This document shows, one piece after another, positions 2,386 to 14,051 of a stretch of DNA of 38,574 bases. The position numbers and the translations under genes are program-made. The notes beneath the pieces were generated by a model, which was not told the origin of the DNA, searched no databases, and worked only from the letters and a program-made list of their open reading frames with translations. The first letter of the stretch is position 1; every line of letters begins with the position of its first letter. Origin of the DNA: Natronomonas sp. (GTDB lineage Archaea > Halobacteriota > Halobacteria > Halobacteriales > Haloarculaceae); assembly GCF_028274965.1 (NCBI RefSeq), contig NZ_JAQCNO010000059.1, positions 1-38,574 on the forward strand. Direction: 5' to 3'.

Positions 2386-4575
2386 ATGAGCAACGAAAAG
2401 GACGCAGAAGAGACCACGAATGACAGCGAACGCCGGGACCCGCAGGAAGGACGGGCGGGCGACTCCGAGGAGGCGTCGCCGAGCGACGACGAGCGTGGGC
2501 GGGACCGCGAGCCGGGGGCCGACCGCGGCGACGACAGAAACGGCGAACGGTCGCGAGCGAACGGTCCGTCGGCGCCCGATCCGCGCGGGGCGGACGAGGT
2601 GCTCGACGAGGACGAGGAGCTCCTTGATGGCTCGGACCTCGGAAGCGAGGTCCACGTCGACAGCGACGTCGAGATCGACGAGGACAACGAGGACGGCCTC
2701 CTGGGCGGGCTTCGGATCGGTTCGAGCAGCGACATCCAGGTTCCAGATCGGCTCGTCGATCAGGTCATCGGGCAGGACCACGCCCGCGACATCGTCCTGA
2801 AGGCGGCCAAACAGCGCCGCCACGTGATGATGATCGGCTCGCCGGGGACCGGCAAGTCGATGCTGGCGAAGGCGATGAGCCAGCTCCTCCCCAAGGAGGA
2901 ACTCCAAGACGTGCTCGTCTATCACAACCCCGACGACGGCAACGAGCCGAAGGTCCGGACGGTGCCGGCCGGCAAGGGCGATCAGATCGTCGACGCCCAC
3001 AAGGAGGAGGCCCGCAAGCGCAACCAGATGCGGAGCTTCCTGATGTGGATCATCATCGCCGTCGTGTTCGGCTACGCGATCCTCATCGCCCAACAGCTGC
3101 TTCTCGGGATCATCGCGGCGGGCGTCATCTACCTGGCGTTCAAGTACATGAGCCGCGGTTCGGACGCGATGGTGCCGAACCTGCTCGTGAACAACGCCGA
3201 CCAGCAGGTCGCGCCCTTCGAGGACGCGACGGGCGCACACGCCGGGGCGCTGCTCGGCGACGTCAGACACGACCCGTTCCAGTCCGGCGGCATGGAGACC
3301 CCCTCGCACGACCGCGTCGAGGCCGGGGCGATCCACAAGGCCAACAAGGGCGTGCTGTTCGTCGACGAGATCAACACCCTCGACATCCGCAGCCAACAGA
3401 AGCTGATGACCGCGATCCAGGAGGGCGAGTTCTCGATCACGGGCCAATCGGAGCGATCCTCCGGCGCGATGGTCCAGACCGAGCCCGTCCCGACGGACTT
3501 CGTCATGGTCGCGGCGGGCAACCTCGACGCGATGGAGAACATGCACCCCGCGCTCCGCTCGCGGATCAAGGGCTATGGGTACGAGGTGTACATGGACGAC
3601 ACCATCGAGGACACCCCGGAGATGCGGCGCAAGTACGCCCGCTTCGTCGCCCAGGAGGTCGCAAACGACGGTCGGCTGCCGCCGTTTACCGACGATGCGA
3701 TCGAGGAGATCATCCTCGAGGCCCGCCGCCGCGCCGGGCGGAAGGGACACCTCACCCTCGAGTTCCGGGACCTCGGCGGGCTCGTTCGCGTCTCGGGGGA
3801 CATCGCCCGCGCGGAGAACAGGGAGTACACCCAACGCGAGGACGTCCTCCAGGCGAAGGCGCGCTCGCGGTCGATCGAACAGCAGCTCGCCGACGACTAC
3901 ATCGAGCGCCGGAAGGACTACGAGCTCACGGTCAACGAGGGCGACGTGGTCGGCCGGGTCAACGGGCTCGCCGTCATGGGCGAGGACTCGGGGATCGTCC
4001 TGCCGGTGATGGCTGAGGTGACGCCGAGTCAGGGTCCCGGCGAGGTCATCGCAACGGGGCAGCTAAAGGAGATGGCCCAGGAGGCCGTCCAGAACGTCTC
4101 GGCGATCATCAAGAAGTTCTCCGACGAGGACATCTCCCAGAAGGACGTCCACATCCAGTTCGTCCAGGCCGGCGAGGGCGGCGTGGACGGCGATTCGGCG
4201 TCGATAACGGTCGCGACGGCCGTTATCTCGGCCCTCGAGGGAATCCCGATCCGCCAGGACATGGCGATGACCGGCTCGCTTTCGGTCCGCGGCGACGTGT
4301 TGCCGGTCGGCGGGGTGACCCACAAGATCGAGGCCGCCGCCAAGTCGGGGCTCGACACCGTCATCATCCCGAAGGCGAACGAGCAGGACGTGATGATCGA
4401 AGACGAGTACAAAGAGCGCATCGAGATCGTCCCGGTCTCGCACATCTCCGAGGTGCTCGACGTGGCGCTCGTCGGCGAACCGGAGAAGGACTCGCTCATC
4501 GATCGGCTCAAGAACATCACCGGGTCCGCGCTCGAACAGCGCGAGGTCGGGCCCTCGAGCCCGAGTCCCCAGTAG
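2386..4575 (+). CDS. lonB: membrane-anchored ATP-dependent protease LonB
   Basis: 729 residues. The first ~100 residues are a very acidic, Arg/Asp-rich low-complexity extension. The AAA+ domain carries Walker A GSPGTGKS (151-158) and Walker B GVLFVDEIN (D327, E328). Two adjacent membrane segments (about 218-254, FLMWIIIAVVFGYAILIAQQ and the next helix) interrupt the ATPase domain, as is diagnostic of archaeal LonB. The C-terminal protease domain has catalytic Ser604 in GDSASIT and Lys647 in GGVTHKIEAA, 43 residues apart. It degrades unfolded and regulatory membrane-associated proteins at the inner face of the membrane; LonB is essential in Haloferax volcanii. The next gene starts 7 bases after the stop, so the two are probably co-transcribed. 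Confidence 0.97.
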   Translation: MSNEKDAEETTNDSERRDPQEGRAGDSEEASPSDDERGRDREPGADRGDDRNGERSRANGPSAPDPRGADEVLDEDEELLDGSDLGSEVHVDSDVEIDEDNEDGLLGGLRIGSSSDIQVPDRLVDQVIGQDHARDIVLKAAKQRRHVMMIGSPGTGKSMLAKAMSQLLPKEELQDVLVYHNPDDGNEPKVRTVPAGKGDQIVDAHKEEARKRNQMRSFLMWIIIAVVFGYAILIAQQLLLGIIAAGVIYLAFKYMSRGSDAMVPNLLVNNADQQVAPFEDATGAHAGALLGDVRHDPFQSGGMETPSHDRVEAGAIHKANKGVLFVDEINTLDIRSQQKLMTAIQEGEFSITGQSERSSGAMVQTEPVPTDFVMVAAGNLDAMENMHPALRSRIKGYGYEVYMDDTIEDTPEMRRKYARFVAQEVANDGRLPPFTDDAIEEIILEARRRAGRKGHLTLEFRDLGGLVRVSGDIARAENREYTQREDVLQAKARSRSIEQQLADDYIERRKDYELTVNEGDVVGRVNGLAVMGEDSGIVLPVMAEVTPSQGPGEVIATGQLKEMAQEAVQNVSAIIKKFSDEDISQKDVHIQFVQAGEGGVDGDSASITVATAVISALEGIPIRQDMAMTGSLSVRGDVLPVGGVTHKIEAAAKSGLDTVIIPKANEQDVMIEDEYKERIEIVPVSHISEVLDVALVGEPEKDSLIDRLKNITGSALEQREVGPSSPSPQ

Positions 4576-6279: not shown

Positions 6280-7311
6280 ATGGAGACCGGCAAAGTAACG
6301 CGGGCGTTCTTCGAGGAGCGGATCGCGACGCGGCTCGGGGCGAACCGGGCGGACGTGTCTCTCGGACCGAAACACGGCGTCGACTTCGGCGTCGTCTCGG
6401 TCGGCGACCGGGCGGTCGTGACGGCGACCGATCCGGTGTCGGTGCTGCCGGGACTCGGCTTCGAGCGCGCCGGCGCGTTCGCGATCGGGATCGTCCTCGC
6501 GGATGTCGCTGTCTCGGGGCTCGCGCCGACGCATCTCACGGTCTCGCTGTCGCTCCCGCCGTCGATGAGCGACGACGAGTTCGATCGGTTCTGGGGCGCG
6601 ATCGACGCCGAGTGCGAAGACCTCGGCGTCTCCGTCGTCACGGGGCATACGGCCCGCTACGCGGAGTGTTCGTTCCCGTGGGTCGGGGCCGCGACCGGGA
6701 TCGCCGTCGGGGACCCCGAGGCGATCGTCCGTCCGGACGGCGCCCGCCCCGGCGACGACGTCCTCGTCACGAAGGGCCCGGCCGTCGAGGCCGTCGGGCT
6801 GTTGACGACGCTGTTTCCGGACGCCGTCGGGCTCTCTGGGGCCGCACTCGAGACCGCACAGGCGAGACTCGACGACGTCGGGGCGGTCAGGGACGCCCTC
6901 GTCGCCGCGGCGAGCGGCGAGGTGACGGCGATGCACGACGCGACGGAGGGCGGACTCTTCGGGGCGTTCGCCGAAACGGCGGACAGCGCCGGGGTCGGGC
7001 TGTCGATCGAGCGCGACGCGGTGCCGTTACTCGACGGCGTCGAGAGCGCCTGTGAAACCCTTGGGATGGACCCCTGGCGGGCGACGACGTCCGGAACGCT
7101 CGTGATCGCGGTCGATCCGGCCGACACCGACGCGGTGATCGGGGCGCTCAGAGAGCGGGGCACGGTCGTCGAGCGGGTCGGCCGCGTCGAGGCCGGGACG
7201 GGCGTCGCGGTCGACGGCGAGCGCCTCGGTCCGTCGGAGGGGGACTCCTCGTGGGAGGTCTACGAGCGACTCCGCGACGCGACGGGCCGAGACGAGCGAT
7301 CCTCGGGGTGA
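6280..7311 (+). CDS. AIR synthase-related (PurM-fold, HypE-like) protein
   Basis: 343 residues with the PurM/HypE/ThiL/SelD fold pattern. The N-terminal half carries VVTATDPVSVLPG and IGIVLADVAVSGLAPTHL, the dimer-forming ATP-site strands. The C-terminal half carries GDDVLVTKGPAVEAVGLL, AMHDATEGGLFGAFAE and ATTSGTLVIAV. HypE matures NiFe hydrogenases and ends in a PRIC-type cysteine that is carbamoylated. This protein ends in TGRDERSSG with no such cysteine, and no hyp or hydrogenase genes are present. It is therefore better called an AIR-synthase-family ATP-using enzyme of unknown substrate. Thiamine-phosphate kinase is less likely, since the spacing and the GDDA motif do not match. It stands alone on its strand, 107 bases before the ABC operon. 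Confidence 0.82.
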   Translation: METGKVTRAFFEERIATRLGANRADVSLGPKHGVDFGVVSVGDRAVVTATDPVSVLPGLGFERAGAFAIGIVLADVAVSGLAPTHLTVSLSLPPSMSDDEFDRFWGAIDAECEDLGVSVVTGHTARYAECSFPWVGAATGIAVGDPEAIVRPDGARPGDDVLVTKGPAVEAVGLLTTLFPDAVGLSGAALETAQARLDDVGAVRDALVAAASGEVTAMHDATEGGLFGAFAETADSAGVGLSIERDAVPLLDGVESACETLGMDPWRATTSGTLVIAVDPADTDAVIGALRERGTVVERVGRVEAGTGVAVDGERLGPSEGDSSWEVYERLRDATGRDERSSG

Positions 7312-7418: not shown

Positions 7419-9308
7419 ATGACGGGGTCGAACACCGAACGGCAAGCGAGACTGTCGCGGCGACGGGCGATCGCCGCGCTCGGCGCGGGGGCGACCACCG
7501 CCTTAGCCGGGTGCGGCGGCAACGGCAACGGCGGCGGTGGCGGCGGCGGAACGCTCCTCACGCCGGAGGGCGATCAGGTCGTCCTCGACGTGTACCACAA
7601 CAGCGCCTCGGAGACACAACAGCTCGTCGCGGAGTTCATCGGACAGGAGCTGTCGGCGAACCTCGGGATCGAGGTCGAGATCGAGCCGATAGACGGGGTC
7701 CGGTTCAACGACGAGTACTGGACGGCGGAGGCCGAAGGGGGCTCCGACACGGTCGGCGGCGAGACCGTCGAGTGGAGCGAGCCGACGCCGAGAAACCCCG
7801 GGCCGCGTTCGGTCACGTCGAACGAGGCGTGGGACATGTCGCTCGTGATCGGGCTGAACACGTACCCGCTGAACCCCCAGACGAACCGGGTGTTTTTCGA
7901 CGGCGCGAACAGCCGGTACAACCCGGTCGGGTACTACCCCGAGTTCGACGCGGCGGGGCTGTTCGAGGAGGCCGGCGCGGCGACCACCGAATCGGAGATC
8001 GCGTCGGTCTTCGAGGAGATCTTCGTCAACATCGCCGCCGAACAGCCCTACATCATGCTGACGTTCACCGACAGCATCACCGGCTACAACCCCGAGCTCC
8101 GGGGGCCGGTCGAGGAGTTCTCGAACGGCTGGGACTTCGCGGGGTGGTTCACCGAGGCCGGGGGCGCCGACGAAAGCGCCGGGCTCCCCGAGGACATCGA
8201 GGAACCCCCCGCGGTCGAGGGCTCGTACAACAGCGTCAGCGGATCGGCGTTCAGCACGCTGAACCCGCTGTACAACACCGAAAGCGGCGCCGGAACGGCG
8301 ATCGACCGGGCGCTGGATCAGGGGTACACCTTCGACGAGAACCAGGAGTACTTCCCACTTTTGTACGACATGTCGACGGACCGCGGCGAGGTCTGGGTGT
8401 TCGAGGTCCGCGATGGCCTGCGGTTCAGCGATCCCTACGGCTCGGTCGACGCCGAGACGTTCGTCTACCTGATCGAGGAGCTGCATCAAAGCGAGTGGGC
8501 GAACACGGCGAACGCCATCGAGTGGAGCGGCGTCAACGTCGAGGTGACCGGCGACCTCGAGTTCCAGGCCGAGCTCCCGGAGCCGCGGCTGCTGTGGCCG
8601 GAGAGCTTCGATCCCCTCGAATACCCCATCCCGCGGGGGCTGCTCGAACCGTACGTCGAAAACGAGGACAGGGAGGGCCTCCAGCGCAACGAGGAACTGC
8701 TCGAGTTGGCGTTCACCGGCAACCTGGGGCCGTACGTGCTCGAGGAGTGGAACCGGGGCTCGGGGACGACCTACACGCGCAACGACGAGTACTACCTCCG
8801 GAACATCGAGGAGGGGCCGGCGCTGTTCGAGAACGCGCCCTACTTCGAGGAGTCGACGATCGAGGTCATCGAGTCGCAGGCCTCGCGGCTCGGCGCGCTC
8901 GAGACCGGGGAGGCGGACTCGGCGGGGATCCCGCCGGAGCGCTTCGAGGATTTCGACGAGAACCCCGACGTGAGCGTGTACCAGGTGCCACAGTCGTTCA
9001 ACCGCATCCTCTCGGTCAACATGCGGGACAACGGCTGGAGCGCCGGGCCGGGCAACCTCTTTCAGTTCGTCGAATTCCGGCGCGCGATGGCCAGCGCGAT
9101 CGGGAAGACGGAGCTCATCGAGGGCGTCTACCGGGGGCTCGCACAGCCACACTACACCTGGCAGCCGCGCTTCTCGGACTTTTACCCCGGCGACGACGTG
9201 GTCGAGACGTACGGCACGGGCGATCTCTACGGGCCGGACGTGGCGCGGGAGTTCGCCAGAGCGGCGATCGAACGCTCCGAGTTCGACTACCGCTACGCCG
9301 AGGAATGA
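7419..9308 (+). CDS. peptide/nickel-type ABC transporter substrate-binding lipoprotein, apparently circularly permuted
   Basis: 629 residues from the ATG at 7419; the frame is open further upstream, but this start places a Tat signal SRRRAIAALGAG and lipobox LAGC (Cys32) at the N-terminus. A Gly-rich linker follows. Residues about 265-629 read like the normal beginning and middle of a family-5 binding protein: FSTLNPLYNTES, RDGLRFSDPYGSVDAETFVY, LGPYVLEEWNRG, FVEFRRAMASAIGKTELIEG and AREFARAAIE. Residues about 45-245 read like its normal end: VLDVYHNSASETQQLVAEFI, LGIEVEIEPIDGVRFN, WDMSLVIGLNTYPLNP and EEIFVNIAAEQPYIML. The C-terminal part therefore comes first, joined through an acidic Pro/Glu linker (246-268). 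It should still fold into two lobes. It heads a five-gene importer operon; the substrate is not predictable. Confidence 0.9.
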   Translation: MTGSNTERQARLSRRRAIAALGAGATTALAGCGGNGNGGGGGGGTLLTPEGDQVVLDVYHNSASETQQLVAEFIGQELSANLGIEVEIEPIDGVRFNDEYWTAEAEGGSDTVGGETVEWSEPTPRNPGPRSVTSNEAWDMSLVIGLNTYPLNPQTNRVFFDGANSRYNPVGYYPEFDAAGLFEEAGAATTESEIASVFEEIFVNIAAEQPYIMLTFTDSITGYNPELRGPVEEFSNGWDFAGWFTEAGGADESAGLPEDIEEPPAVEGSYNSVSGSAFSTLNPLYNTESGAGTAIDRALDQGYTFDENQEYFPLLYDMSTDRGEVWVFEVRDGLRFSDPYGSVDAETFVYLIEELHQSEWANTANAIEWSGVNVEVTGDLEFQAELPEPRLLWPESFDPLEYPIPRGLLEPYVENEDREGLQRNEELLELAFTGNLGPYVLEEWNRGSGTTYTRNDEYYLRNIEEGPALFENAPYFEESTIEVIESQASRLGALETGEADSAGIPPERFEDFDENPDVSVYQVPQSFNRILSVNMRDNGWSAGPGNLFQFVEFRRAMASAIGKTELIEGVYRGLAQPHYTWQPRFSDFYPGDDVVETYGTGDLYGPDVAREFARAAIERSEFDYRYAEE

Positions 9309-9340: not shown

Positions 9341-10315
9341 ATGGGACTGCCACGGTACGTCGCCGCGAGGGTCGTCTGGGCCGCGGTCGTGTCGCTCGTC
9401 ATCGTCACGATCACCTTCGGGCTGATGGCGGCGGCGCCGAACCCGGCGGTCCAGGAGGCCGCAACGCAGGCGGCACTCGAGGGCGGCGACCCCGAGGAGG
9501 CGGTCGAGCGCGAACGGGAGCTCCGCGGGCTCGACGAACCGCTGCACGTCAGATACGCCGATTTCCTCCGGGGCGTGTACACGCTCAACTGGGGGTGGTC
9601 GGACCTCCAGAACAGACCGGTCTCGGAGGCGCTCTCGGAGGCGCTGTTCTACACCGCGCAGTACTCGGTGCCCTGGACGGTGCTGACGCTTCTGATCGGA
9701 CCGCTCATCGGGGTGTACTCAGCGGCCAACATGTACAGCTGGCGGGACCACCTCGCGACCGGCGTCGCCTTCTTCGGGTACGCGATCCCGAACTTCTTTT
9801 TCGGGATCATCCTGCTGTTGCTGTTCGGCGTCTACCTGGAGTGGATCCCGGTCGTCTACAACACGGACGTCGCCGTCTTCAGCCTCGAGAACGCCAGACA
9901 GCTCGCGATCCCGGTGTTCGTTCTCGTGACGGGGTCGATCGGGGCGATCATGCGGGTGTCCAGAAACGAGTCCGCCGAGTTCCGGAACGCCGACTTCATG
10001 AAGACGGCCAAAGCCAAGGGCGTCTCGCCGCTTCGGGCCTACGCGTACCACGTCATGCGCCCGACGATGGTCCCGCTTTCGACGACGGTCGTCGGCCAGT
10101 TGCTCGCGATCTTTCTGGGCTCGTCGCTGCTCGTCGAGGTCGTGTTCGGGATCCCCGGGCTCGGGCGGCTGACCTTCGATGCGCTCATCGCACAGGACAC
10201 GAACCTCGTGTTGGGGACGACCCTGCTTTTCACCTTCGTCGCGGTGGTCGGAAACCTCATCGAGGACATCGTCTTCACCGTGTTGGACCCCCGCATCAGC
10301 TACGACGACAGATAA
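9341..10315 (+). CDS. ABC importer permease 1 (DppB/OppB type)
   Basis: 324 residues. An N-terminal helix (YVAARVVWAAVVSLVIVTIT) is followed by a long outside loop containing RERELRGLDEPLHVRYADFL, the DppB hallmark. Five more membrane helices follow. The cytoplasmic coupling segment is KTAKAKGVSPLRAYAYHVMR, close to the consensus for contacting the ATPase. It forms the pore with the next gene product. It lies 32 bases after the binding-protein stop, with a GGAGG-like sequence shortly before the ATG. Confidence 0.93.
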   Translation: MGLPRYVAARVVWAAVVSLVIVTITFGLMAAAPNPAVQEAATQAALEGGDPEEAVERERELRGLDEPLHVRYADFLRGVYTLNWGWSDLQNRPVSEALSEALFYTAQYSVPWTVLTLLIGPLIGVYSAANMYSWRDHLATGVAFFGYAIPNFFFGIILLLLFGVYLEWIPVVYNTDVAVFSLENARQLAIPVFVLVTGSIGAIMRVSRNESAEFRNADFMKTAKAKGVSPLRAYAYHVMRPTMVPLSTTVVGQLLAIFLGSSLLVEVVFGIPGLGRLTFDALIAQDTNLVLGTTLLFTFVAVVGNLIEDIVFTVLDPRISYDDR

Positions 10316-10319
10316 GCCA

Positions 10320-11507
10320 ATGACGAGTGAGAAACCGGACCGGTTCGATCGGGTCGATTGGTCGGCCTACGAGGGCTCGGGCGGCGTCGACCCCTCGGTC
10401 AACACCGTCGGAGCGATCGGAACGACGCTGCCGTTGGTCGCGCTTTTCGTCTACGACCGGCAGTTCGTCGGCGAGCGGGAGGCGACCTTCGGCGCGGTCG
10501 GGCTCGAGGCCGACTGGAGTGGCCTCGAGTACCTCTTCGCGTTCACCCTGATCCTGTTCGTGTGGTACGTGCTCGTTCCGCTGTACCAGAACCCCCGGAT
10601 GACGCGGTACTACTGGAGGGAGTTCACGCGGAACCGACCGGCGGTCGTCAGCCTCGGGTGGCTCCTCGTCGTGTTCGTCGGCGGGCTGCTCGGACCGCTC
10701 GTGGTGAGCGCGCCCGAACAGAGCGTCCTCGCCGGACACCAGCCCCCGGTGTATCTCTCGATCGATACGGCGAACGTCGCGCAGTGTCTCGGGGAGGTCC
10801 GCGGCGGGCGGTGTTACGGGACCTGGGAGTACCCGCTCGGAACGACCCGGGGCGGCAAGGGCGTGTTCAGGTCGATCGTGTACGGGATGAGGATAAGCGT
10901 CCAGATCGCCTTTATCACGACGACGATCGTCGCGACCATCGGGATCACGTTCGGAACAGTAAGCGCCTACGCCGGCGGGTGGGTCGACGAGGCAATGATG
11001 CGGTTCGTCGACGTCGTGTTGTCGTTTCCGACGCTTCTGATGTTCCTGTTGATCCTGTACATTTACGGGGCCGGCCTCGGCATGTTCATCGTCGTGTTCT
11101 CGCTTTTCGCCTGGGGCGGCACGGCGCGGTACGTCCGCAGCAAGTCGCTGTCGGTCTCGGAGGAGACGTACGTCAGCGCGGCCCGGATCAGCGGCGCGAG
11201 CACCACCCGGATCGTCCGACGCCACGTCGTCCCCAACACCGCCAGCAGCATCGTCACCCAGCTCACGCTTCTCGTCCCCGGGTTCTTGCTCGCCGAGGCA
11301 CAGCTCGCCTTCCTCGGGTTGGGCGATACGAGCCTCCCGTCGTGGGGACAGCTCATCGCCGCCGGGCGCAGCGACCTCGGGTTCGCGCCCTGGATCGTCG
11401 TAGCGCCCGGTATCGTGCTGTTTCTCACGATCCTCGCGTTCAACTTCCTCGGCGACGCGCTGTTGGACGCGTTGGACCCCGAGGCGGCGGCGGAGGTCGA
11501 GCGATGA
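10320..11507 (+). CDS. ABC importer permease 2 (DppC/OppC type)
   Basis: 395 residues from the ATG at 10320, 4 bases after the previous stop; a longer upstream frame only overlaps the first permease. The N-terminal ~130 residues add two membrane helices (about 35-46 and 70-85) and a third near 110-130, with linkers, before the permease domain. DppC proteins usually have a shorter N-terminus. The core includes GTTRGGKGVFRSIVYGMRIS, SLSVSEETYVSAARISGAST (the coupling helix region) and FLGLGDTSLPSWGQL, all typical of DppC. The stop overlaps the start of the first ATPase (ATGA), showing tight coupling. Confidence 0.93.
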   Translation: MTSEKPDRFDRVDWSAYEGSGGVDPSVNTVGAIGTTLPLVALFVYDRQFVGEREATFGAVGLEADWSGLEYLFAFTLILFVWYVLVPLYQNPRMTRYYWREFTRNRPAVVSLGWLLVVFVGGLLGPLVVSAPEQSVLAGHQPPVYLSIDTANVAQCLGEVRGGRCYGTWEYPLGTTRGGKGVFRSIVYGMRISVQIAFITTTIVATIGITFGTVSAYAGGWVDEAMMRFVDVVLSFPTLLMFLLILYIYGAGLGMFIVVFSLFAWGGTARYVRSKSLSVSEETYVSAARISGASTTRIVRRHVVPNTASSIVTQLTLLVPGFLLAEAQLAFLGLGDTSLPSWGQLIAAGRSDLGFAPWIVVAPGIVLFLTILAFNFLGDALLDALDPEAAAEVER

Positions 11508-12703
11508 GCGGGACCGACCGGGATCCGGAGGTGGAGGCGGAGGCGGATTTGGACGCCGAGACCGAAGCGACCGCGGAGGGAGGTGACGAGCCGCTTCTCG
11601 CCGTGGAGGGGCTCAGAACGACCTTCGAGACTGACGCCGGGACGCTCGTCGCCGTCGACGGGATCGACTTCACCGTCTCGGAGGGCGAGACGGTCTGTCT
11701 GGTCGGCGAGTCCGGGTCGGGCAAGACGGTCGCGACGGAGTCGATCACCCGCCTCGTGGACTCGCCGCCGGGACACATCGAGGGCCGCGTCCGGTTTCGG
11801 GGGCACGATCTCCTCGCGATGGACGCGGAGGCGATCCGGTCGGTTCGCGGCCCCGGGATCGCCCACGTGTTTCAGAACCCACAGGACGCGTTGAACCACT
11901 GTTACACGGTCGGGTGGCAGATCGTCGAGGCGATCCGGGTCCACGAGGACGTGAGCGAGGCGGCGGCCAGGGCCCGGGCGGTCGAGCTTCTCGATCGGGT
12001 CGGGATCGCAAACCCAAGCGCGCGCTTCGACGACTACCCCCACGAGTTCTCCGGCGGGCAGAAACAGCGGGTGATGATCGCGGTGGCGCTGGCCGGCGAT
12101 CCGGACCTGCTCGTCGCCGACGAGCCGACGACGGCGCTCGACGTGACGGTGCAGGCGCGGATACTCGAGCTCCTCTCGGAGCTGCAGGCGGAGTTCGGGA
12201 TGGGCGTCCTCTTCGTCACCCACGACCTCGGCGTCGTCGCGGAGATCGCCGACCGGGTCGTGGTGATGTACGCCGGGAAGGTCATGGAGCGCGGCAGCGT
12301 GCTCGACGTGTTCGAGCGGCCGAGTCACCCCTACACGCGGGCGCTGTTGTCGTGTCTGCCCGGGCGGGGAAACGAGGTGACCGGGATCGAGGGCTCGCTA
12401 CCGGACCCGACGGCGCCGCCGGAGGGCTGTCGGTTCGCGCCGCGGTGTGAGCACGCGATCGGGGCGTGTCGCCGCGGCGAACAGCCGCCCGAAACCGAAC
12501 TCACCGAGGGCCACGGCGTCTCCTGTGTGTTCTACCGGGACGGGCGGGATCCGTCGGTCGTCCGCGGGAACGGGAACGGGAACGGGAGCGGGGACGGAAG
12601 CGACGCCGAAACAAAGAGACGGGACGCGAGCCGGAACGGGAGCCGAAGCGCCGACGCGTCGACACCCGGTACCGGCGGCGCGGAGGGATCGGACGGTGGC
12701 TGA
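11504..12703 (+). CDS. ABC importer ATPase 1 (DppD/OppD type)
   Basis: 399 residues from the ATG at 11504, which overlaps the previous stop by 4 bases. An acidic 30-residue N-terminal tail precedes Walker A GESGSGKT (68-75). The Q-loop region [12 protein letters not shown], signature [12 protein letters not shown] and Walker [13 protein letters not shown] follow. The C-terminal oligopeptide domain has the cysteine cluster CRFAPRC...C...C expected for DppD. After it comes a low-complexity Gly/Asn/Ser/Arg tail encoded partly by GGGAAC repeats. It hydrolyses ATP on the cytoplasmic face to drive uptake. Confidence 0.94.
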
Positions 12704-14051
12704 CGGGGCGTCCCGGGCGGGGGCCGAACCCCTGTTGTCAGTCCGGGATCTGCGGAAGCACTACCCGATCACGGAGGGGCTCCTCTCGCGGGAGGTGGGG
12801 TCGACGAAGGCCGTCGACGGGGTCAGTTTCGACGTCTACCCCGGCGAGACGCTCGGGCTCGTCGGCGAGTCGGGCTGTGGGAAATCAACGGTGGCGAAGT
12901 CGATCGTCCGCCTCGAGGAGCCGACCGGCGGCGAGGTGCGGTTCAACGGGGCGAGCAGAGGCGAGACGGGGGCGGGCGGCGGCGACGGGCCGCACCCGAA
13001 CGACGTGACCCGGTTCGACCGCGCGGAGTTGAAGTCGTTCCGACGGGACGTCCAGATGGTGTTTCAGGACCCCACGTCGAGTTTCGATCCCCGGATGACC
13101 GTCGGCAGTTCCGTCGCCGAGATGCTTCTCGTCCACGGGATGACCGACGGCGAAACGCGGCGGGCGATCGTCGAGGACCTACTGGAGCGCGTCGGGCTCT
13201 CGGCGTCGGACTACGACCGGTATCCCCACGAGTTCTCCGGCGGGCAGAAACAGCGGATCGCCCTCGCCCGGGCGCTCGTGTTGAACCCCGAACTCGTGAT
13301 CGCCGACGAGCCGGTCTCGGCGCTCGACGTGTCGGTCCAGGCGAAGGTCCTCTCGTTGATCGACGAGTTGCAGTCGGCGTTCGGGCTGTCGCTGCTGTTT
13401 ATCAGCCACGACATGTCCGTCATCCGTCGGATCTGCGACCGCGTCGCGGTGATGTACCTCGGCGAGATCGTCGAGGTCGGCCCGGTCGCGGACGTGTTCG
13501 CCGACCCCCAACACCCCTACACCGAGGCGCTCCTGTCGGCGGTGCCGCGGCCGGACCCGCGGGCCGATCCCGACCGGATCGAACTGACCGGGACGGTTCC
13601 GGACCCCGCCGATCCGCCCTCGGGGTGTCGGTTTCACACGCGCTGTCACCGCGTGGTGCAGCCGGAGGGCGTCGACGTCGAGCAGTCGGCGTGGCGGCGG
13701 GTGCTCGATTTCCGCGAGCGGCTGCGGGACGGGGACCTCGAGGTCGACGCCGGCGCGGCGGACCGAACGGCGGCGTCCGGCGGTCCGAGCGCTGCGGGCG
13801 TCCGCGCCGAGTTCGACCTCCCGGAGCGGCTCGGCGACGAGCGGGCCGAGCGGGCCCTCGAGGCAGCGATCGAACGCCTCGTCGCCGGCGACGAGGCGGC
13901 GGCGATAGAGCGCCTCTCGGAGGTGTTCCGAACGCCGTGTGAGACGACCGTCCCCGAGTGGACCGACCACGGCGGCGGTCACGGGTCGGCGTGCATCCGT
14001 CACCGATCGGCGGAGCTATCGGACGACCTCGAGGGCATAGAGACCGACTGA
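12696..14051 (+). CDS. ABC importer ATPase 2 (DppF/OppF type) with long insert in its cysteine cluster
   Basis: 451 residues. The start is taken as GTG 12696, overlapping the previous gene by 8 bases; the frame is open upstream, but that part would lie inside the first ATPase. Walker A GESGCGKST (57-65), Q-loop MVFQDPTSSFDPRM, signature [15 protein letters not shown] and Walker B VIADEPVSALD are intact. In the C-terminal domain the first cysteines (C311, C317) are separated from the second pair (C415, C433) by about 97 mostly helical, acidic residues. From memory, a QPEG-type insert like this is common in haloarchaeal DppF. This is the last gene of the importer operon. Confidence 0.93.
   Translation: MADGASRAGAEPLLSVRDLRKHYPITEGLLSREVGSTKAVDGVSFDVYPGETLGLVGESGCGKSTVAKSIVRLEEPTGGEVRFNGASRGETGAGGGDGPHPNDVTRFDRAELKSFRRDVQMVFQDPTSSFDPRMTVGSSVAEMLLVHGMTDGETRRAIVEDLLERVGLSASDYDRYPHEFSGGQKQRIALARALVLNPELVIADEPVSALDVSVQAKVLSLIDELQSAFGLSLLFISHDMSVIRRICDRVAVMYLGEIVEVGPVADVFADPQHPYTEALLSAVPRPDPRADPDRIELTGTVPDPADPPSGCRFHTRCHRVVQPEGVDVEQSAWRRVLDFRERLRDGDLEVDAGAADRTAASGGPSAAGVRAEFDLPERLGDERAERALEAAIERLVAGDEAAAIERLSEVFRTPCETTVPEWTDHGGGHGSACIRHRSAELSDDLEGIETD

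Follow-up and report, generated by a model that had tools for sequence, protein, structure and literature searches.

Family-5 binding proteins of the DppA/OppA type normally run from a first and middle part (the N-block) through a loop and helix (the M segment) to a C-block. The 38,574-nucleotide contig NZ_JAQCNO010000059.1 of a Natronomonas sp. genome (assembly GCF_028274965.1), the whole of which we refer to as the window, contains an open reading frame at 7419-9308 (+) that encodes a 629-residue member of this family with the block order C-N-M rather than N-M-C. We consider it very likely that the protein serves the neighbouring Opp/Dpp-type importer as its lipid-anchored binder, that it descends from an ordinary family-5 binder by a circular permutation in place within the Natronomonas lineage, that it would bind between two lobes with its tether now leaving the C-lobe, and that block order in the family is labile. 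The gene is divided as follows.

7419..7514 (+), signal peptide, assigned by motif, with a twin-arginine motif at residues 14-16 (RRR), the lipobox LAGC and the lipid-attachment cysteine Cys32
7515..7550 (+), glycine-rich tether of 12 residues (33-44), with the 5' permutation junction at its end
7551..8153 (+), C-block, residues 45-245, moved to the front from its normal place behind the M helix
8154..8201 (+), acidic linker, residues 246-261, which connects the former C- and N-termini
8202..9197 (+), N-block, residues 262-593, corresponding to the beginning and middle of a normal family-5 protein
9198..9305 (+), M segment, residues 594-629, the loop and helix preceding the hairpin where the chain now ends
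9306..9308 (+), stop codon immediately 3' of the hairpin strand (FDYRYAEE, then stop)

Profile searches recover the family in two displaced stretches. The PF00496 (SBP_bac_5) profile matches the window protein with 137.7 bits (cut-off 32.4), split over two stretches; cut out alone, residues 1-245 align with positions 287-331 of the profile (E 0.0024; at 17.5 bits this piece does not reach the cut-off) and a later piece matches positions 14-272 (E 1.3e-35). The protein reaches the curated score for SBP_bac_5 while violating its co-linear domain order. Only PF00496 stands above its cut-off among the two Pfam families matched at E up to 1. Hidden Markov models (HMMs) built solely from 29 haloarchaeal family-5 proteins of normal order put the C part (residues 58-229, E 2e-5) ahead of the N part (317-583, E 5e-23), and the M helix (residues 594-629), the third relevant segment, completes the order C-N-M. 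Together with a co-linear Natronomonas aquatica relative, these matches confirm the circular permutation proposed in an initial annotation of the sequence, and the reading frame, signal, block boundaries and acidic linker that it described are retained, with the linker taken here as residues 246-261. By eye, this linker reads as the old C-terminal end followed by the old post-lipobox linker, and it resembles the linker behind the lipobox of the N. aquatica relative. Pfam, the PDB, the relatives and the structure comparisons yielded no co-linear alignment of the protein over its whole length to normal binders.

The window protein is predicted to adopt the two-lobed cluster-C fold, with the chain break in a beta-hairpin of the C-lobe and the acidic linker bridging the old termini. 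An AlphaFold model of the permuted chain has a predicted local distance difference test (pLDDT) score of 93.3, with 58-82 in ten-residue blocks around the linker; the model depends on its input alignment, in which homologues were cut to the permuted order. Sequential structure alignment to DppA covers residues 1-345 for the window protein versus 1-507 for the co-linear relative. In a comparison with solved structures, as suggested in the initial annotation, Foldseek and VIA-align matched the permuted model over the N-block and M segment only; the moved C-block had no direct structural match, and for that block the co-linear relative served as the contrast. In none of the PDB rows listed does the best stretch cover the two blocks in permuted order. 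All 50 of the 50 solved chains among the matches listed align with the co-linear model from end to end, and the co-linear order is therefore taken as ancestral.

The closest relative that we found is the N. aquatica protein, which heads the same operon, is co-linear and is 79% (N) and 72% (C) identical to the window protein, the highest values among the rows compared. In this relative the equivalent of residues 255-626 of the window protein comes first and that of residues 40-246 directly after. A search of 146 genomes of the same taxonomic family found a match in 34: 25 are co-linear (N and M, with C directly behind), eight, including this genome, are permuted, with a single match running across both parts, and one has the N part only. 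A careful tree of 44 close rows pairs the window protein with the N. aquatica protein (support 100/99) and groups 13 rows with a second permuted order, M-C-N, in one clade (100/99). The N. aquatica protein is also nearest to the window protein in trees of the N-block and C-block alone, a pairing that is starred in the C tree. Upstream, the 70 bp 5' of the gene align between the two genomes (score 30, against a maximum of 18 in 1000 shuffles). Because the closest relative is co-linear and heads the same operon, and because the upstream region can be aligned, the swap most likely took place at this locus within the Natronomonas lineage. Approximately unbiased (AU) tests on 33 rows, made on quick trees with groups picked after tree inspection, rejected a single clade of the 11 tested C-N-M rows (p 1.4e-5) and one of the 10 distant C-N-M rows (p 0.0016).

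The permuted gene probably originated through an in-frame partial gene duplication and subsequent loss of the first N and M copy and the last C copy, which would leave promoter, signal, C, old linker, N and M. The fold would tolerate this rearrangement because the old termini are proposed to lie close together in the N-lobe, where a linker could join them, and the new termini to sit in a beta-hairpin exposed on the C-lobe. Tolerance is the simplest reading: the termini would lie close in one lobe and the other lobe would expose a hairpin, with duplication and deletion as intermediate steps. The permuted protein would still bind substrate between the two lobes and hand it over to two permeases, its membrane tether now leaving the C-lobe and formerly the N-lobe. 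It most likely still works as an ordinary binder and importer subunit, since both blocks, the lipobox and the operon are present and since the ratio of nonsynonymous to synonymous substitution rates (dN/dS) is low in those permuted pairs that were compared. The motif N-[TS]-[YH]-P-x-x-P occurs in 19 of 20 C-N-M, 12 of 13 M-C-N and 71 of 87 N-M-C rows, and a lipobox in 26 of 26, 12 of 13 and 99 of 104, respectively. In the co-linear proteins L109, L113 and L119 a twin-arginine signal is present and the lipobox pattern is missing; the anchor is thus not shared by the whole family.

Several observations weigh against this account. The window's own permuted variant was seen in this genome only, its pairing with N. 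aquatica is not starred in the N-alone tree, and the predicted model has the alignment dependence described above. The 3' flanks of the two genes show no alignment beyond chance (score 11, shuffle maximum 16). A search for a duplication intermediate found no row with two C or two N matches among 143 rows; five later rows (L194 and L197-L200) were flagged with doubled matches, which we interpret as a single C block interrupted by an insert. Between the window and N. aquatica genes, dN/dS is 0.28 (N) and 0.44 (C), below 1 and above both the low values of the permuted pairs tried and those of the same-genus co-linear pair L004/L005 (0.19 and 0.31). Constraint on the window gene may, given these ratios, be looser. 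Our confidence in the explanation as a whole is slightly reduced because the neighbourhood shared with N. aquatica is smaller than first taken and because of the dN/dS values.

Permuted family-5 binders are found in many haloarchaea. Sorting by N, M and C HMMs (with five rows that lack an M match placed by N and C alone) divided a first sample of 120 distinct proteins into 87 N-M-C, 20 C-N-M (the window protein and 19 others) and 13 M-C-N, and an enlarged set of 148 loci into 109, 26 and 13. The M-C-N rows come from five named Halorubrum strains, one uncultured archaeon and seven genomes of genus code g25. In these proteins the chain is opened before the M helix and in C-N-M proteins after it, at sites about 30 residues apart. 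An order-wide profile search of 392 genomes, 140 of which had a match, identified at least 32 genomes with a full-length permuted match (22 C-N-M and 10 M-C-N).

A simpler signature of the permuted order is a PF00496 match that stops early. In a survey of 39 haloarchaeal genomes, the PF00496 matches listed were either full or ended at or before position 298. All 30 short matches listed have 226-334 residues between the lipobox (or twin-arginine motif) and the match, versus 43-151 residues before the match in 30 control loci (each the best full match of its genome), and 29 of the 30 have at most 35 residues after it, the exception (L289) running past a stop. The normal-order HMMs, whose 29 source proteins come from these controls, place C before N in 32 of 32 proteins (the 30 short matches, the window protein and a second gene of its genome; E at most 2.1e-5), whereas 0 of the 32 reversed sequences matched at E 0.01. 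A complete listing for 22 haloarchaeal genomes gave 126 PF00496 matches, 38 of them short; 36 of the 38, in 16 of the 22 genomes and including both matches of this genome, are permuted, one of the 38 having been judged from a gene fragment and its co-linear match and a part of the 88 long matches having been opened. A short profile match alone was rejected as proof of permutation, as two of the 38 candidates (L315 and L316) proved normal. The genome search proposed in the initial annotation thus recovered co-linear and permuted forms alike, and its expectation that a permuted family-5 binder would be unusual does not hold with 36 of 126 matches permuted. PF00496 matches that end near position 287 often conceal whole permuted proteins (36 of 38 in these 22 genomes).

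The second gene just mentioned, at 26928-28700 of contig C58 (L145, L222), is the only other PF00496 match of the genome and is divergent and also permuted. Its first part matches profile positions 287-363 (E 0.0014, below the cut-off alone) and its second part positions 3-283 (E 1e-33). Matches to this binder at E 1e-10, some of partial length, occur in 92 of 146 genomes of the order. No permease was found near C58-type binders in the stretches viewed at four named plasmid loci (Halobaculum, Haloarcula, Haloferax gibbonsii and Natronorubrum bangense), and the C58-type binder is perhaps not an importer subunit. At C58-type loci on these plasmids, a gene annotated as a PAP2 phosphatase or phosphorylceramide synthase lies directly 3'.

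Individual haloarchaeal loci show further irregularities. At L035 and L063 (Halorubrum sp. CSM-61; G426), the permuted frame begins after the signal region and a stop interrupts the sequence upstream of it, so that the gene is perhaps broken or wrongly assembled. L082 (G148:C1, ~410123-411838) is a co-linear copy with a stop between the N and C parts, in a genome that also has permuted family-5 genes.

Permuted binders also occur beyond the haloarchaea. In a phylum sample of 117 genomes, both short matches listed outside the order are permuted and fall in one genus of another archaeal family (f21 g141), whose sequences we guess to be thermococcal. Across eight genomes of this genus, the protein is C-N-M in G536, G544 and G582, co-linear in G520, G532, G642 and G669, and without a match in one; HMMs confirmed the order for G536, G544, G582, G520, G669 and G532, and co-linear and permuted forms are 83-88% identical by block. 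Plasmids of the alphaproteobacteria Nitratireductor sp. OM-1 and Maritalea myrionectae encode C-N-M proteins beside ABC permease and ATPase genes. The best 24 plasmid matches to the Nitratireductor protein besides itself are single co-linear pieces, in haloarchaea and alphaproteobacteria. The chain ends of 14 C-N-M proteins place the opening after the M helix, in the hairpin turn or just beyond the second strand.

Trees were used to count the order changes. These trees were quick and contain long branches, which were flagged, so the numbers are approximate, and the counts give no direction. A tree of 148 rows requires six order changes, whether built from both blocks, the N-block alone or the C-block alone, and supported branches force 5, 5 and 4 of them, respectively. 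A family tree of 132 rows (126 different; 76 permuted and 56 normal) requires ten, of which eight are forced by supported branches. One co-linear protein, L189 (G106:C104, from a 52%-complete genome), is nested in a permuted clade and likely reflects either reversion to the original order or another event. Within the family, the same isomer has probably arisen repeatedly, at this hairpin or next to it, so that chain order would be an evolutionarily labile and probably near-neutral trait.

Alternative explanations concern the window gene itself and the reasons for permutation. That a misjoin in assembly or binning swapped the blocks of a truly co-linear gene, a concern raised at the outset, could find encouragement in the exact variant being present in a single genome of 73 contigs and 94% completeness; we regard it as extremely unlikely, as the frame runs through both junctions, signal and stop codon are consistent with it, the flanks are conserved, a second copy was not found in the genome, and the permuted order recurs in many assemblies, some of them single-contig (G245, G360, G437 and G544) and others from named strains such as Halorubrum lipolyticum DSM 21995. 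It is scarcely more plausible that the gene belongs to an old permuted subfamily and that its closeness to N. aquatica reflects tree error or transfer. Old permuted clades do exist, and the C58 gene of the same genome sits in one, but the co-linear N. aquatica protein has the highest identity and a strongly supported pairing, and a single clade of the 11 C-N-M rows was rejected. The short tether (12 residues, the lower end of the C-N-M range, whose median is 26.5) and the dN/dS values relative to N. aquatica would fit a decaying or non-functional gene. We judge decay just as improbable as an old subfamily, given the intact frame and operon, the high-confidence predicted fold, the lack of any other close match of this kind in the genome, and dN/dS values below 1 here and low in other permuted pairs.

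Haloarchaea use the twin-arginine translocation (Tat) pathway for most of their protein export, and export of already folded proteins could permit permutation by making folding order during secretion irrelevant. The frequency of the permuted form in haloarchaea (36 of 126) is consistent with this idea, but by eye C-N-M proteins of the f21 archaea and the alphaproteobacteria carry Sec-looking signals; we dropped Tat as a general cause on account of these proteins and consider its role unlikely. Somewhat better placed, though still doubtful, is the idea that permutations are adaptive, with relocation of the lipid tether from the N-lobe to the C-lobe altering docking, reach or membrane strain. 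Repeated fixation at or beside the same hairpin and the near-universal lipobox of C-N-M and M-C-N rows point this way, and a tethering reason was raised for a permuted cluster-B binder by its authors (PMC4990184). Against it, co-linear and permuted forms share the same operon type in related genomes, the co-linear L189 lies among permuted proteins, and the Nitratireductor and Maritalea permuted proteins have signal peptides that by eye lack a lipobox. Because such bacterial proteins exist, tethering is not the general reason.

That cluster-B binder, TpMglB-2 (Tp0684) of Treponema pallidum, provides the closest precedent. Its authors describe a natural, lipid-anchored, circularly permuted ABC binding protein classed as 'Type Ic / Cluster Bc', a glucose binder reported to change conformation upon ligand binding; its last 100 residues share only 13% identity with the first 100 residues of MglB from E. 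coli, so its history is unclear (PMC4990184). The window protein resembles it in being circularly permuted and lipobox-bearing and differs in belonging to cluster C, in lacking the cluster-B sugar-binding domain (no sugar-binding family is among the Pfam families matched at E up to 1) and in having blocks 72-79% identical to a co-linear relative. Among the hits viewed in the open-licence literature we found no report of a naturally permuted family-5 binder, and two candidate reports (PMC3688454 and PMC2588589) describe none in their available parts. Natural permutation of a binder is thus known from cluster B; the family-5 case appears to be new, and its recurrence is the surprising part.

Natural circular permutations are seen as rare and mostly old events. 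With DppA/OppA-type binders (PF00496, cluster C; E. coli DppA, 1dpp) the window protein shares its sequence family, the predicted fold of the N-block and M segment, and an operon with two binding-protein-dependent (BPD) permeases and two oligo_HPY ATPases; it differs in its C-N-M order and in a mature chain that both starts and ends in the C-lobe. Halorubrum-type M-C-N proteins (L032-L035, L040, L055 and others) have the same operon type, family and permuted state, with blocks 61-71% identical at six loci, and differ in forming a separate clade and in being opened about 30 residues earlier, before the M helix. Both orders thus occur at high block identity within the same operon type, at 72-79% for the window and N. 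aquatica and 83-88% in f21 g141, with Halorubrum as a third case. Such evolved matched pairs make chain order, folding order and anchor position directly testable for a transport protein and amount to a natural experiment on the importance of chain order.

Downstream of the binder lie the genes that complete a standard five-gene importer operon of the Opp/Dpp type, as first described.

9341..10315 (+), permease 1 (PF00528, PF19300), DppB/OppB type
10320..11507 (+), permease 2 (PF00528, OppC_N), DppC/OppC type, with the first ATG of the frame taken as putative start
11504..12703 (+), ATPase 1 (ABC_tran, oligo_HPY)
12447..14051 (+), ATPase 2 (ABC_tran, oligo_HPY), of uncertain N-terminal extent

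The window and N. aquatica share a six-gene order of binding protein, permease, permease, ATPase, ATPase and S49 peptidase. An AIR-synthase-related gene (6280-7311 in the window) was considered as part of this common block and rejected, as N. aquatica has only three short, broken matches to it, about 6 kb upstream of the binder. These frame-changing matches, on the minus strand at 17821-18227 of L218, look like a broken remnant. Elsewhere in the window, 2386-4575 appears by eye to encode a Lon-type protease.
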